Positions 3,372 through 20,588 of a DNA stretch of 29,733 bases are shown here, one piece after another. Every line of letters begins with the position of its first letter. The stretch's first letter is position 1. The notes beneath the pieces are model-generated. The model made no database searches and was not told the DNA's origin. It was given only the letters and a program-made list of their open reading frames with translations. Source of the DNA: a virus. The DNA lies in IMG/VR virus record IMGVR_UViG_3300006928_000048, positions 1 to 29,733 of that record; one strand, written 5' to 3'. A program made the position numbers and the translations under genes.

Positions 3372-3845
3372 TTATTTTTCCTTATGTTTCCGAGTAATAT
3401 GAATCTTCATGTTACTCTCTGTAGCAAATCTTTTTCTGCAACCTTTTACAGTACATTTCAAAGATTTACTTTTGTTAATTTCTCTTGTTTCCCGTTTTTT
3501 TAACTCTTGTGCTAACATATCGGTTGCCACCTCAAGACTGCTCTCACTGGAAATTTCTGCACTATCGGCTTCTAACGTCTCAAGCACAGGGCGAGCCATG
3601 AGCCAATTTTTCTGTACGGCAGTGGCGAGACCATGAATATGTCCAGGGTACTTAAGAGTTTCCCATTCACCATTTATCTCACGATAAAATATCGCTTGGT
3701 CTGGTGTAACGTATTCAGGTAACGGTAGTTCCTGTAAATTGTTCCTCTTTAAATATTCCTTAACCATGTCAGGATGTTGTGCAATCACTTCATTCTTCCA
3801 ATAGTTTTGCATTATTTTTGGAGGTGCAACAACTGGTTGTTCCAT
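3372..3845 (-). CDS. Late-block protein with C-terminal C2H2 zinc finger
   Basis: This 157-residue protein lies between the capsid and decoration genes. Residues 1-90 (PKIMQNYWKNEVIAQHP, then PGHIHGLATAVQKNW) are mixed and unrecognised. Residues 91-128 are acidic then basic helix. Residues 131-154 are a canonical C2H2 zinc finger with Cys131, Cys136, Phe140, Met146, His149 and His154 in C-x4-C-x3-F-x5-M-x2-H-x4-H spacing. Such fingers bind nucleic acid or protein in eukaryotes and are uncommon in phage virion operons. It overlaps the upstream gene by one base. A role in DNA packaging, head completion or gene regulation cannot be separated from sequence alone. Confidence 0.65.
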   Translation of the reverse strand: MEQPVVAPPKIMQNYWKNEVIAQHPDMVKEYLKRNNLQELPLPEYVTPDQAIFYREINGEWETLKYPGHIHGLATAVQKNWLMARPVLETLEADSAEISSESSLEVATDMLAQELKKRETREINKSKSLKCTVKGCRKRFATESNMKIHITRKHKEK

Positions 3846-8900: not shown

Positions 8901-10870
8901 GCTTTTTCAAATTCTGCTTTTGCTCTCTGGATAACATAGTTACCTTTTTCTGTTCTTGCTCCTGTTTTAAAATTAAAGTATTCACTACCTTGAACTTTAA
9001 ACATTGGTTTCAAATCAAATATTAAATCATCTACTGGTTGCTTTCCTATGGGAGTTACCATATCTTCTCTAACAGCTTTTCTTACATCTACTACAGCACT
9101 AATTATATCTGACTCTAAAAAAGCATTTGTACCTTGGTCAATTGTTTTATTTAAATCTGCTACATTATATCCTGAATTTTTATGTTGGTCTTTTAATACT
9201 CTATATATTCTTGCAGCATCTGCTTCATTAGGTGTAATTATAAAACCATTTATATCTTTTTTAAAAACACGTTTAGAATCACCAGATTTAGTAATAGTAT
9301 TTTTTACACTAATTCCAGCTGCATTCAAAGCATTAGCTTTATTACGAGCATGTTCTAAATACTTAGTTTTTAAATCTGTTGCATCTCCAACTTTTGCTAA
9401 TATCTGAGGGTCAATAGAATTTACTATTGTACGAAAAGGAGTTGTTATAAAAGATAATCCTATCTTGTCTATACCATCAAAAGTTTTTCTTATTCCTTCT
9501 TGTAACTTAGCAGCTTGGTTTTGTTTTAAAGTTTCTTGATTTTTCTTTACTAATTTTTCTCTAAATCTATCACGTCTTTTTATAATATTATCGTCACTAA
9601 AAAAATCTTCTGAATATTTTACAGTTTCTTTATATGTACCAAGTTGTGCATCAAATTGTTCTCTTGTCAAAGGTCTGGATAATCCTTTTGCAAAATCTGG
9701 ATTTGAAATAACATTTGCTGTTATGTTATCAAAGTGGTCATAACCATCAATAAGAGGAATAACATTATCATAAACACCTGGCATCCTAGAAACTAATCTT
9801 CCTTCTGCTGCTGCTGTGTTATATTCTATTGCAGCTCCACCCTTTACTAAGTCTGCACCTTTTTCTTCTATACGTTGTCGCAATAAATCACTAGGGTTTG
9901 TATTATAAGTTACAACATCATCATAATAACTTTTTATATCACTAGCAATTTGTTTTGTTTTTTCTGCAACTTTTTTAGGTTGTGCAACTATTTTACCTGT
10001 TTTAGTAACTGCTTGAACAGGTGCTTTTATAGAAAGCCTAGCTAAACCTTTTAAAGCCTTAGACCCTGTTTTTATATCTGATGCTATTCCTATGCCTGGC
10101 AATACATTTAAAGGGTCAAATATAAACTCTAATGTTCCTTTTACATATGTAGGTTGGTCTGTTTCTTTATATGCTTTTTTAGTTGCATTCAAATCTTCTA
10201 CTGGATTATTAAAAGAACTTAAAAGAGTCCATTCTTCACCAGTAGCTTCTTTAAAATATTGATTTCTTTTTTTTCTAACTTCATCTGAATCAATTCCAAA
10301 AACACCATCTGGTATAACACTAGTTGCTAGAGAAGCTCCATATTCTGCACCTCTTTGTAAAGGAGCTGCACGTCTAGCTGCTTCCGTTCCTGTTGCAAAA
10401 AATCCCCTAAGTCCTCTTTGTTTACCAGCTGCTTCACGTTCTTCTTCTACTATTTTAAGTTGTTTATCAAACTCAGTTTCTCCAGGACTTACAAATCTTG
10501 CAGCTATACCTACTGCTGTGTTGATTCCTGGTTCTATAAATTCTAAAGCACTCAATCCTGCATTTGCTAAGTTTTCTCTAACACCAGATGCAAAACCAGA
10601 ATAACTTATAGGCTCTGCTGTTTCTTGTGGAGGTTCTACAACTGGAAATGGTTTTGGTGGAGAATCAGGTTCATTCAAAGGAACAACAGGTTGTTGAGGG
10701 TTTAAAATATTTTGTTCAGCTACCAAAGCTCTTTCTCTTGCTTGAGCTTCTATAACTAATCTTTCTTGTTCTCTTAAACGGTCTTGTCTTTCCTTGCGAA
10801 GTTTTTTTATTCTTGTATTGTAATCTTCTTTTGGAGTAGAAAAAGGATTTGTATTAAAGGGTGATACCAT
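5954..10870 (-). CDS. Giant internal virion / ejection protein (candidate)
   Basis: This 1638-residue protein is by far the longest in the window. The N-terminus is basic and helical (residues 15-55), then Pro-rich (about 58-85). Long helical stretches follow, with a hydrophobic segment around 895-925 (GLTAIYAPIVFGLG) that could insert into a membrane. The last 400 residues are charged and helical. No transglycosylase or peptidase active site could be identified by eye. Proteins of this size encoded among head genes in podovirus-like genomes are often ejected with the DNA and build a conduit through the envelope. That role is inferred here from length, helix content and the hydrophobic segment. 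Its ATG abuts the stop of the 784-residue gene. Its place between portal and scaffold, rather than after the tail genes, is unusual. Confidence 0.6.
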   Translation of the reverse strand: MVSPFNTNPFSTPKEDYNTRIKKLRKERQDRLREQERLVIEAQARERALVAEQNILNPQQPVVPLNEPDSPPKPFPVVEPPQETAEPISYSGFASGVRENLANAGLSALEFIEPGINTAVGIAARFVSPGETEFDKQLKIVEEEREAAGKQRGLRGFFATGTEAARRAAPLQRGAEYGASLATSVIPDGVFGIDSDEVRKKRNQYFKEATGEEWTLLSSFNNPVEDLNATKKAYKETDQPTYVKGTLEFIFDPLNVLPGIGIASDIKTGSKALKGLARLSIKAPVQAVTKTGKIVAQPKKVAEKTKQIASDIKSYYDDVVTYNTNPSDLLRQRIEEKGADLVKGGAAIEYNTAAAEGRLVSRMPGVYDNVIPLIDGYDHFDNITANVISNPDFAKGLSRPLTREQFDAQLGTYKETVKYSEDFFSDDNIIKRRDRFREKLVKKNQETLKQNQAAKLQEGIRKTFDGIDKIGLSFITTPFRTIVNSIDPQILAKVGDATDLKTKYLEHARNKANALNAAGISVKNTITKSGDSKRVFKKDINGFIITPNEADAARIYRVLKDQHKNSGYNVADLNKTIDQGTNAFLESDIISAVVDVRKAVREDMVTPIGKQPVDDLIFDLKPMFKVQGSEYFNFKTGARTEKGNYVIQRAKAEFEKAKLLAEYGNPIVAGGKVLSGKALADFYLSEKAYTSRYVLNRTGNKAFSNNSLEKSFNKNRKYLDPDNIFEEIINGEKNIIYANPEDALSLSFIGAYNQMIDSVLKYDLIDFFNKSKAARKQYGITVVEKITSPQSGFQLQADTLPGYKIGNKEITLKKTKPSNRNVPLEQTESEKLWDGLLFRTEKDAAKFANDFDLIINASKDVVGMPALIKNQIKTGTGVLGAPISKAGDITKVFRLAGTGIDLGLTAIYAPIVFGLGSAKILKGIAADNPKLISEGKNLYKGIARATVDSIVSLVNPDRVLAKTYSPARQKTLALMNRNNMGLGRLQVEAYEAVSASTTKWGGEVTNPVNFPGKTQIGKLLRKFEGSWSTFIDEIKISTFEALTSGLDEIQDAVKIREIADFIEKGTGTLSSEAVGLSSFQRKIESTFMFFSPRMTRSILGLLSDSLTRGGERGALARQGAIGAWTSLQAYTWGIGQALGQDVNLDPTQPHYLQIKIGNDWVGPGSQIISLPRAAYRMAAGPDDVDAVYREINQENEVTDQPWFQFLRGRAFTAPAGSMMLEAISNENYFGEPYEGLTDFATAQGKRFFPFWMQDAVAGDPYKTGFRGIAAEFAGLRTRPLTTYERRRDLRDQAVTEMFPEFSSYLDLDPTRKKLFNSELEKESSNKISAAILSDLKATDELIQIDRQNKGGNSSQLDDFYEILETTRDEKAERVAETLNTYVSSVAQSPADLRASLNTVNAEYSSKYKDIYEEGGKYSDAHNYIKQLESINDTEKIEDIWISSYLENVLYNSEWEKQTEQGISFYDYDGKAEAEASWINQYGNDAYEYIQEYLVAGKNTSPIIQELYDARERFSFYWDGAKEDAINFTANKLGRLKSEVSQLYNAYRTGTVSEKEVLKESEIIKEVTSYIAKSRTIMRENNPALDGFLYRWGYTTTLVNPQNDSLEAQTLWRNKTPISLNQPGNLYDQYATMAENVVQ

Positions 10871-17930: not shown

Positions 17931-17960
17931 TTGACAAATATATTGTTGTTGTTATATTAT
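17931..17960 (+). promoter_or_regulatory. Early promoter P1
   Basis: TTGACA (17931-17936) is followed by a TTGTTGTTGTTAT-containing spacer and a -10 that can be read as TATATT (17953-17958, spacer 16) or TATTAT (17955-17960, spacer 18). The TTGTTGTTGTTAT block is shared with promoters P2 and P4. It would drive the first early genes from 18011. Confidence 0.75.
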
Positions 17961-18387: not shown

Positions 18388-18681
18388 ATGATACACGAAA
18401 TAAATAAAACAGAGTTTATAGATGCGTTCAGAATATGGCATGGTGGCGATTATAAAAACAATTTTTCATATGATGGATTAGATGCTTTGTTTGATTATCT
18501 TGATGAAATTGAAGAGTACGAATTAGATATTGTGGGTATATGTTGCAATTATTCAGAGTATGAAAACCTTGCAGAAATTAAGCAAAGTTATCCAGATATT
18601 GAAACAATTGAGGATTTGAGAGAATTTACAGAAGTTATAGAAATTCCAAATACTGAAAGGTTAATAATAGCAGGATATTAA
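18388..18681 (+). CDS. Conserved phage small protein with NFSYDGLDALFDYL motif
   Basis: This 97-residue protein is preceded by AAGGAGTAAAA. It contains FIDAFRIWHGGDYKNNFSYD, GLDALFDYLDEIEEYELDIVG, ICCNYSEYENL and a Y-P-D-I-E-T-I-E-D-L stretch, ending ERLIIAGY. The combination NFSY-x-GL-x-ALF-x-YLE-x-x-E, then ELD-x-x-x-ICC-x-YSEY, is a conserved pattern I recognise from phage and plasmid proteins of unknown function. The central ICC pair could bind metal, but only two Cys are present. The stop codon ends at 18681 and the hammerhead-like fold begins at the very next base. Confidence 0.75.
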   Translation: MIHEINKTEFIDAFRIWHGGDYKNNFSYDGLDALFDYLDEIEEYELDIVGICCNYSEYENLAEIKQSYPDIETIEDLREFTEVIEIPNTERLIIAGY

Positions 18682-18757
18682 ATAGCCAGAAATCGAAACA
18701 CACTATATTATATGGTGTGTCTACAGGTAAAACCTGTACTGATGTGATAAAGGCTAT
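18682..18757 (+). ncRNA. Hammerhead ribozyme, type II (candidate)
   Basis: Three stems surround a hammerhead core. Open-ended stem II pairs ATAGCC (18682-18687) with GGCTAT (18752-18757) and ATC (18692-18694) with GAT (18746-18748), across an A-rich internal loop. GAA at 18695-18697 is the G12-A13-A14 core. Stem III pairs ACACACTATA (18698-18707) with TATGGTGTGT (18711-18720), ten pairs with one T-G wobble and loop TTA. C18721 is the cleavage-site nucleotide of a canonical GTC triplet. Stem I pairs TACAGGT (18722-18728) with ACCTGTA (18732-18738), loop AAA. CTGATG (18739-18744) supplies C3 to G8. Position 9 is T18745 where A is expected. The predicted cut falls between 18721 and 18722, separating the upstream mRNA from the frameshifted gene. 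The deviation at position 9 may reduce activity. Confidence 0.8.
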
Positions 18758-18793
18758 CAAATCAGAAAATAAAAAGAATAAGGAATTAATAAA

Positions 18794-19101
18794 ATGATAC
18801 CATCAAAACCAATAAAAAAGAATTAGATGTTTTTGAAATTGAAATTACAGAAACAAGAAAAATTACCAGATGGGTTAAGGTAAAAGTTGCGAATGATGCT
18901 TCACAAAAAATGAGAGATAAAGGCGAATTGATAGGATATGTAAATTTATCACATGATGATGAATATACACCAGATGGATATTTAGAAATGGATAGTGCTT
19001 TTAGAAATTATGAAAATCAAGGCTATGAAGTTGACGTAATAGAAACAATATCGGTTGATGAAGATAGAGATGAAGTCGATATAACAGATGGAGATTACTA
19101 A
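18794..19101 (+). CDS. Early acidic protein requiring a -1 shift (A AAA AAG)
   Basis: ATG 18794 follows AAGGA (18780-18784) at good spacing but its frame ends at TAG 18824-18826 after ten codons. The long frame, open from 18793 to TAA 19099-19101, has no start with a ribosome binding site of its own; its first internal ATG (18910) is far in. The two frames join by a -1 move at A AAA AAG (18814-18820), which is correctly phased. The joined product is 102 residues: nine residues, then ELDVFEIEITETRKITRWVK, SDD/E-rich strands, and a very acidic end (SVDEDRDEVDITDGDY). It is probably a beta-rich acidic early protein of unknown function. A one-base error in the six-A run would give the same picture. 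Confidence 0.55.
18814..18820 (+). promoter_or_regulatory. Putative -1 frameshift heptamer A AAA AAG
   Basis: The heptamer is read as at-A AAA AAG in the ATG 18794 frame, the exact phase used by the strong bacterial slippery site of dnaX. The zero-frame stop TAG follows one codon later. A strong downstream stem or internal Shine-Dalgarno at the dnaX distance is not evident, so a sequencing or natural indel remains possible. Confidence 0.45.
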
Positions 19102-19111
19102 ATAAAATAAT

Positions 19112-19136
19112 CCTAAGCATGATTAAAAACTGCTTA
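19112..19136 (+). repeat. Intergenic hairpin element, copy 1 (CCTAAGCATG-N6-AACTGCT)
   Basis: CCTAAGCATG (19112-19121) and AACTGCT (19128-19134) recur with identical 6-base spacing at 24955-24977. Here TAAGCA (19114-19119) and TGCTTA (19131-19136) make a 6-bp stem with an 11-base loop. It lies in the untranslated gap before the 19180 gene. A structured leader or RNA-processing site is possible. Confidence 0.5.
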
Positions 19137-19179
19137 CAAAAATAAAAAAAAATCAAGGCTACTTGAAAGGAAAAATAAA

Positions 19180-19496: not shown

Positions 19497-19510
19497 GTAC
19501 TAAAGTACCT
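19496..19510. promoter_or_regulatory. Operator-like inverted repeat O2 (GTACT-AA-AGTAC)
   Basis: AGTACTAAAGTACCT is the exact reverse complement of the 15 bases at 20546-20560. It contains GTACT and AGTAC inverted about a 2-base centre and ends on the first T of the P2 -35 box. Both copies share the flank AAACTA(A/G) on one side. A repressor bound here would block polymerase. The small HTH protein at 25765 is a possible binder, which is inference only. Confidence 0.65.
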
Positions 19511-19538
19511 TTACATTGTTGTTGTTATAGTGTACAAT
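19510..19538 (+). promoter_or_regulatory. Early promoter P2
   Basis: TTTACA (19510-19515), a 17-base spacer with TTGTTGTTGTTATAGTG, and TACAAT (19533-19538). The ATAGTGTA block before the -10 is shared with P3 in the same phase. It drives the 19592 gene and those after it. Confidence 0.75.
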
Positions 19539-20542: not shown

Positions 20543-20545
20543 ACT

Positions 20546-20560
20546 AGGTACTTTAGTACT
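20546..20560. promoter_or_regulatory. Operator-like inverted repeat O3 (GTACT-TT-AGTAC)
   Basis: AGGTACTTTAGTACT is the exact reverse complement of O2 at 19496-19510 and again ends on the first base of a -35 box (P3). Having the same site next to two -35 boxes in opposite orientation indicates a dimeric DNA-binding regulator rather than chance. Confidence 0.65.
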
Positions 20561-20588
20561 TGACACAACAACAATAATAGTGTAGTAT
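20560..20588 (+). promoter_or_regulatory. Early promoter P3
   Basis: TTGACA (20560-20565), 17-base spacer CAACAACAATAATAGTG, and TAGTAT (20583-20588) followed by TATATT. The spacer end, -10 and TATATT closely match P5 at 28427-28455. It drives the 20621 gene. Confidence 0.8.

Follow-up and report, generated by a model that had tools for sequence, protein, structure and literature searches.

The window analysed here is the whole 29,733-nucleotide stretch of DNA, which comes from an uncultured phage contig (IMG/VR virus record). Between two of its genes we found an element that we interpret, with a probability of about 0.72, as a natural variant of the type II hammerhead ribozyme, with U instead of A at core position 9 (U9), which would cleave itself and so punctuate a polycistronic transcript of the phage. 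The structural identification as a type II hammerhead is practically certain. Against the full reading we counted the near-invariance of A9, an Rfam score below the gathering threshold, absence from two close relatives (L003 and L004), and a competing "anti-core" fold whose predicted stability exceeds that of the ribozyme fold when tertiary contacts are ignored.

On the minus strand, as far as about 17.5 kb, lie structural genes such as those for terminase and the major head protein; the plus strand carries small genes, a primase-polymerase and a RusA-like resolvase. The features of the ribozyme region are as follows; RF02276 is the Rfam type II family and R1 a viral covariance model described below.

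17931-17958, plus strand: sigma-70-like promoter TTGACA-16-TATATT, 5' of the gene cluster (consensus match only)
18388-18681, plus strand: upstream cistron, 97 aa, PHROG 9974, stop codon TAA at 18679-18681
18682-18757, plus strand: U9-variant type II hammerhead ribozyme, whole (sequence, fold, shuffles, covariance model)
18682-18687, plus strand: 5' strand of outer stem II, AUAGCC, 6 pairs with 18752-18757 (sequence, energies)
18692-18694, plus strand: 5' strand of inner stem II, AUC, 3 pairs with 18746-18748 (sequence, model R1, energies)
18695-18697, plus strand: core G12 A13 A14 (sequence, model R1)
18698-18720, plus strand: stem III hairpin, 18698-18707 with 18711-18720, 10 pairs including one G-U, loop UUA
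18721-18722, plus strand: predicted cleavage site between C17 and U1.1 (register with RF02276 and model R1)
18722-18738, plus strand: stem I hairpin, 18722-18728 with 18732-18738, 7 pairs, loop AAA
18739-18745, plus strand: core CUGAUG followed by U9 at 18745, where the consensus is A9 (sequence, RF02276, model R1)
18746-18757, plus strand: 3' strands of stem II, inner GAU at 18746-18748 and outer GGCUAU at 18752-18757
18755-18765, plus strand: anti-core segment UAUCAAAUCAG, which can pair with 18739-18749 and excludes stem II
18780-18784, plus strand: AAGGA, resembling a ribosome-binding site, for the downstream cistron (sequence)
18794-19101, plus strand: downstream cistron, ATG at 18794, 102 aa in contig L001, frameshifted in the window at the A run 18814-18819

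Three helices surround one core, with stems I and III closed by loops and stem II open, which is the type II topology. The initial annotation had described three stems, GAAA, GTC and CTGATG in hammerhead order and spacing. When checked pair by pair, all of them were in register and its pair counts (7 in stem I, 10 in stem III, 3 plus 6 in stem II across an A-rich loop) matched, as did cleavage after 18721 and a start at the base next to the upstream stop codon. The GAAA segment is 18695-18698, its last base A15.1 (18698) pairing with U16.1 (18720), and the cleavage triplet GUC is 18719-18721, so that H17 is C18721, i.e. not G. An A-rich 4x3 internal loop separates the outer from the inner stem II. 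In the register of the viral subclass discussed below, stem I has 6 pairs and the loop UAAAA; this loop and the flanking A, examined for the stem I-stem II contact, match the subclass consensus. Between loop I and the tail of the window copy no Watson-Crick pseudoknot was seen. The one core deviation claimed, U9, was also borne out: against the core C3 U4 G5 A6 N7 G8 A9, CUGAUGU matches at six of seven positions, and the rest of the core is intact. Because of the U at position 9, we filed the element as a variant and not as a canonical member of RF02276.

Chance origin was rejected on the basis of shuffling and of an independent covariance model. The fold of 18682-18757 has -24 kcal/mol (z = -4.85), and none of 200 shuffles was as good. 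A descriptor of GAAA, U-H17, CUGANG and three stems, applied to both strands, matched once in the window, with 20 stem pairs; in 400 dinucleotide shuffles of the whole window it gave five matches of at least 10 pairs, and none of these exceeded 14. Rfam returned nothing for the window at the gathering threshold, and hammerheads were absent from the results for a 676-base query at E up to 10. With a 96-base query, RF02276 was the best family, but the 25 bits obtained (E 0.0015) fell short of the 37 required for gathering. Model R1 was built from 58 aligned A9 members with a 17-nt stem I hairpin, taken from type II hammerheads that we gathered from viral contigs by pattern scan; the window was excluded. 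It gave the window element 47.8 bits (E 8e-13, filters off), the next best score in the window being 6.8 bits. The covariance check proposed in the initial annotation therefore came out divided, below gathering with the Rfam type II model (25 versus 37 bits) and positive with R1. Pair counts of the R1 members are inflated because pairing was itself a requirement of the descriptor that chose them; no such selection acted on the loop consensus UNANG or on the bases next to stem II, and at most of these positions the window conforms.

The position of the ribozyme between genes follows a rule that we found in viral type II hammerheads at large. Counting stop codons that end open frames of at least 50 codons, a stop lies within 8 nt of G12 in 128 of 179 viral type II hammerheads, versus 80 of 1778 control GAAA sites (4.5%). 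A ribosome site plus start codon lies within 60 nt in 147/179 versus 325/1778 controls, and a stop within 40 nt together with a ribosome site plus start occurs in 128/179 versus 68/1778. The window ribozyme follows this placement, its stop-to-G12 spacing being 13 nt because of the outer stem II helix. Perreault et al. described phage hammerheads flanking genes and proposed transcript processing (PMC3088659); the stop-adjacent register is sharper than what we found stated in the text of that paper. These figures point to intercistronic cutting as the common job of most of the viral type II hammerheads examined. Of the operon-separator role suggested earlier, the intercistronic site and its placement statistics held, while cleavage itself and its relevance to the phage are what we infer.

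According to the proposed mechanism, stems III, I and then II would form once RNA polymerase has passed about 18757. By analogy with hammerhead chemistry, G12 as general base and the 2'-OH of G8 as general acid would break the 18721/18722 linkage by promoting attack from the 2'-OH of C17. The upstream message would keep its stop codon and have the stem III hairpin at its 3' end, terminating in a 2',3'-cyclic phosphate; the downstream message would carry a 5'-OH and open with the stem I hairpin, some 70 nt ahead of its start codon. With type II topology both new ends would be closed hairpins, which should protect both messages from exonucleases and uncouple their decay. The placement of most viral type II hammerheads examined also suggests why type II, with a hairpin left on each new end, is suited to phages. 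A review (PMC6155905) describes the biological function of hammerheads in prokaryotes as an open question.

The element shares with bacterial and phage type II hammerheads (RF02276; text of PMC3088659) the topology open at stem II, GAAA, GUC, CUGAUG, the stem lengths and an intergenic phage location. It differs from the RF02276 type by U9 in place of A9, the sub-gathering score, the extra outer stem II helix, the lack of a Watson-Crick loop I-tail pseudoknot and the anti-core segment downstream. With the viral subclass of 17-nt stem I hairpins on which R1 is based, it has in common U at loop position 1, A at position 3, A before stem II and the stop-adjacent placement; it departs from this subclass in its fourth stem II pair, an A-A mismatch replaced by the internal loop and outer helix, and in U9, which it shares with L058. 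Among the viral loci L116-L235 we also observed two main type II architectures: one combines a 17-nt stem I hairpin (loop UNANG) with a 4-pair stem II; the other has a longer stem I hairpin of 21-24 nt and a shorter stem II, and its loop is often complementary to the tail that directly follows stem II (pseudoknot).

Other natural exceptions to the "invariant" core, likewise in phage intergenic contexts, are described in the text of PMC3088659: A6C in phage Bcep176, the saltern HHmeta and HHphage, U15.1-A16.1 and the viroid U4C. HHphage lies, like the window element, just 5' of a start codon in an early-gene transcript. Unlike U9, these variants have changes at other positions or insertions. 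The same text reports that type II and phage hammerheads cleave in vitro, that a triple array of A. tumefaciens cleaves in E. coli, and that natural core variants have reduced yet real activity.

Nearly invariant in the hammerhead core, A9 makes a sheared pair with G12, the general base, in the crystal structure of a pseudoknot hammerhead (PMC11300833). Position 9 is treated as fixed because of this pairing, and for the same reason an effect of U9 on the rate is expected. A search of the available literature for A9U found nothing, and no position 9 variant was found in the text of PMC3088659. We scanned position 9 with GUC triplets and two stem II types (TC/GA and GC/GC). For TC/GA, at least 119 distinct cores with stems had A9 and four had U9, whereas none of 33 distinct C9 or G9 cores had stems. 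For GC/GC, three more U9 cores (L249, L264 and L265) and one C9 core (L329) were found, and no G9. A further U9 scan of genome contigs with stem II GTC/GAC gave six sequence matches, none of them with stems, and these were discarded.

In total, seven U9 cores with intact stems (versus one C9 and no G9) belong to six lineages, the window plus five further viral contigs, and each of the seven is preceded by the stop codon of an open frame and followed by a start codon. Two of them, L045 and L055, are copies in one phage with the same loop I pseudoknot, and the L055 copy scores above the Rfam gathering level. Were the three non-A bases equally probable, U in at least six of seven lineages would have P = 0.007 (hand calculation). 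Sequencing error is an unlikely source of U9 in the window since contig L001 has the same base. U9 is a rare but recurrent natural variant. Its presence in at least five unrelated viral sequences makes it probable that the variant works and cuts mRNA between genes, and judging from sequence we hold it rather probable that the U9 form is active in cells. With natural U9 ribozymes in several phage lineages and A9 cousins beside them, the tolerance of position 9 is directly testable.

In two contigs with U9 or C9 hammerheads, further core variants were observed as well, at 3399-3459 (minus strand) in L249 and at 10051-10128, 10523-10597 and 9263-9328 (minus strand) in L329. A CUGAUGAU core, with an extra U before stem II, is present in both contigs, and a CCGAUGA core (U4C) in L329. 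The two phage contigs look like a reservoir of core variation.

The best-surviving alternative, which we nevertheless consider unlikely, is a decayed hammerhead, recently acquired and now inactive or nearly so through U9, with hairpins that are neutral or mildly stabilising. It would account for the rarity of U9 (7 cores versus at least 119 A9 cores in one scan), and it fits the contact of A9 with the general base G12 (PMC11300833), the Rfam score under the gathering threshold and the close relatives without a ribozyme. However, 29 of 29 pairable nucleotides of stems I and III are paired and all other core bases are intact, U9 occurs in six lineages with intact stems and twice in one phage, and the near absence of G or C at position 9 is contrary to what random decay predicts.

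A working U9 hammerhead has also to be weighed against the sequence that follows it. Both the 6-pair outer stem II helix and the anti-core segment appear to be particular to the window copy; the segment was noticed after the fact, in that one copy. It pairs through CUGAU, a G-A mismatch and UGAUA, with U9 opposite A18759, and the resulting hairpin (-8.6 kcal/mol) was equalled by 0.1% of shuffled tails. The hairpin is the predicted preferred fold of the 3' product, and in a nearest-neighbour model that ignores tertiary contacts it is also preferred in uncut RNA. For growing transcripts, the ribozyme fold is predicted to dominate at ends 18755-18763 and the anti-core fold from 18765. Anti-core tails as a family-wide feature were unsupported, since the own tails of 66 subclass members were no better than swapped tails (p = 0.57), and because of this lack of enrichment we regard the segment as a property of the window copy. 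U9 as a general anti-core partner was likewise rejected, as most other U9 copies had no such hairpin on inspection.

A bistable switch could be built from these parts: with the anti-core segment competing against stem II, cleavage would occur only in a short transcription interval (about 18757-18765) or while 18682 to about 18693 is free of ribosomes, and uncut RNA would be locked. Phage mRNA would then be cut or spared according to translation of the upstream gene. The energy of the hairpin and its rarity among shuffled tails, the change of favoured fold along the transcript, the stop codon abutting stem II and the use of U9 as a pairing base all agree with such a switch, but we judge it still less likely than decay. 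The segment was found after looking and in one copy, the tail comparison gave p = 0.57 across the family, the energies leave out tertiary contacts, which favour the ribozyme, the hairpin is missing from most other U9 copies, and a trap after cleavage explains the same hairpin more simply. For the self-cleaving punctuation mark, the simplest reading is such a trap: refolding of the anti-core hairpin after stem I would make the cut hard to reverse.

Copies of the ribozyme were found in the window and in L001 only, which are 99.8% identical over 5 kb. The within-lineage comparison thus consists of L001 alone, with an identical ribozyme and no variation that could reveal selection. L003 and L004, close relatives by terminase, are without the ribozyme; in L003, the same place between the same two genes holds a 47-codon ORF and a different hairpin. 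When relatives of the two flanking genes were sought by protein, only L001, essentially identical, and L003 came up. R1 and RF02276, run over related phage records, revealed no hammerhead in any other relative; a weak match inside a coding gene of L038 and a weak match in G006 were both taken as chance. DNA matches in named phages were limited to short chance ones. Since L003 and L004 do without it, the ribozyme is dispensable; it is a small intergenic module, gained or lost recently.

At 19111-19137 of the window there is another intergenic hairpin, whose loop region AUGAUU(N)AAAAC is conserved; it also occurs in L003 (about 8097-8060, minus strand) and L004. Its stem varies by paired changes, AAGCA/UGCUU in the window and AGACA/UGUCU in L003, and in L003 it occupies the ribozyme's place between the two genes.

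That the element might consist of mere intercistronic hairpins, stabilising or separating messages without cleavage, is very improbable: the minimum-energy fold of the region is indeed three tandem hairpins and related phages have other hairpins between genes, but GAAA, GUC and CUGAUG mark the three junctions precisely and stem II closes, an independent hammerhead model gives 47.8 bits, and no shuffle matched the window element. The earlier view of an intercistronic type II hammerhead with one core change is supported by the U9 comparison and the placement data, and its cleavage is predicted from sequence. New here are the recurrence of U9, the placement statistics and the anti-core segment.

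The downstream cistron is frameshifted in the window by a missing A (6 A at 18814-18819 versus 7 A in L001, where the 102-aa frame is open); this may be an assembly error or a real frameshift. The "early" status of the ribozyme-bearing mRNA is inferred from gene order and the promoter-like site at 17931-17958; the promoter region as a whole has no excess of sigma-70-like matches. Two further promoter-like sites, at about 19497-19538 and about 20545-20588 of the window, are each preceded by a GTAC..GTAC palindrome (GTACTAAAGTAC and GTACTTTAGTAC), and the two palindromes resemble a putative operator common to early genes.
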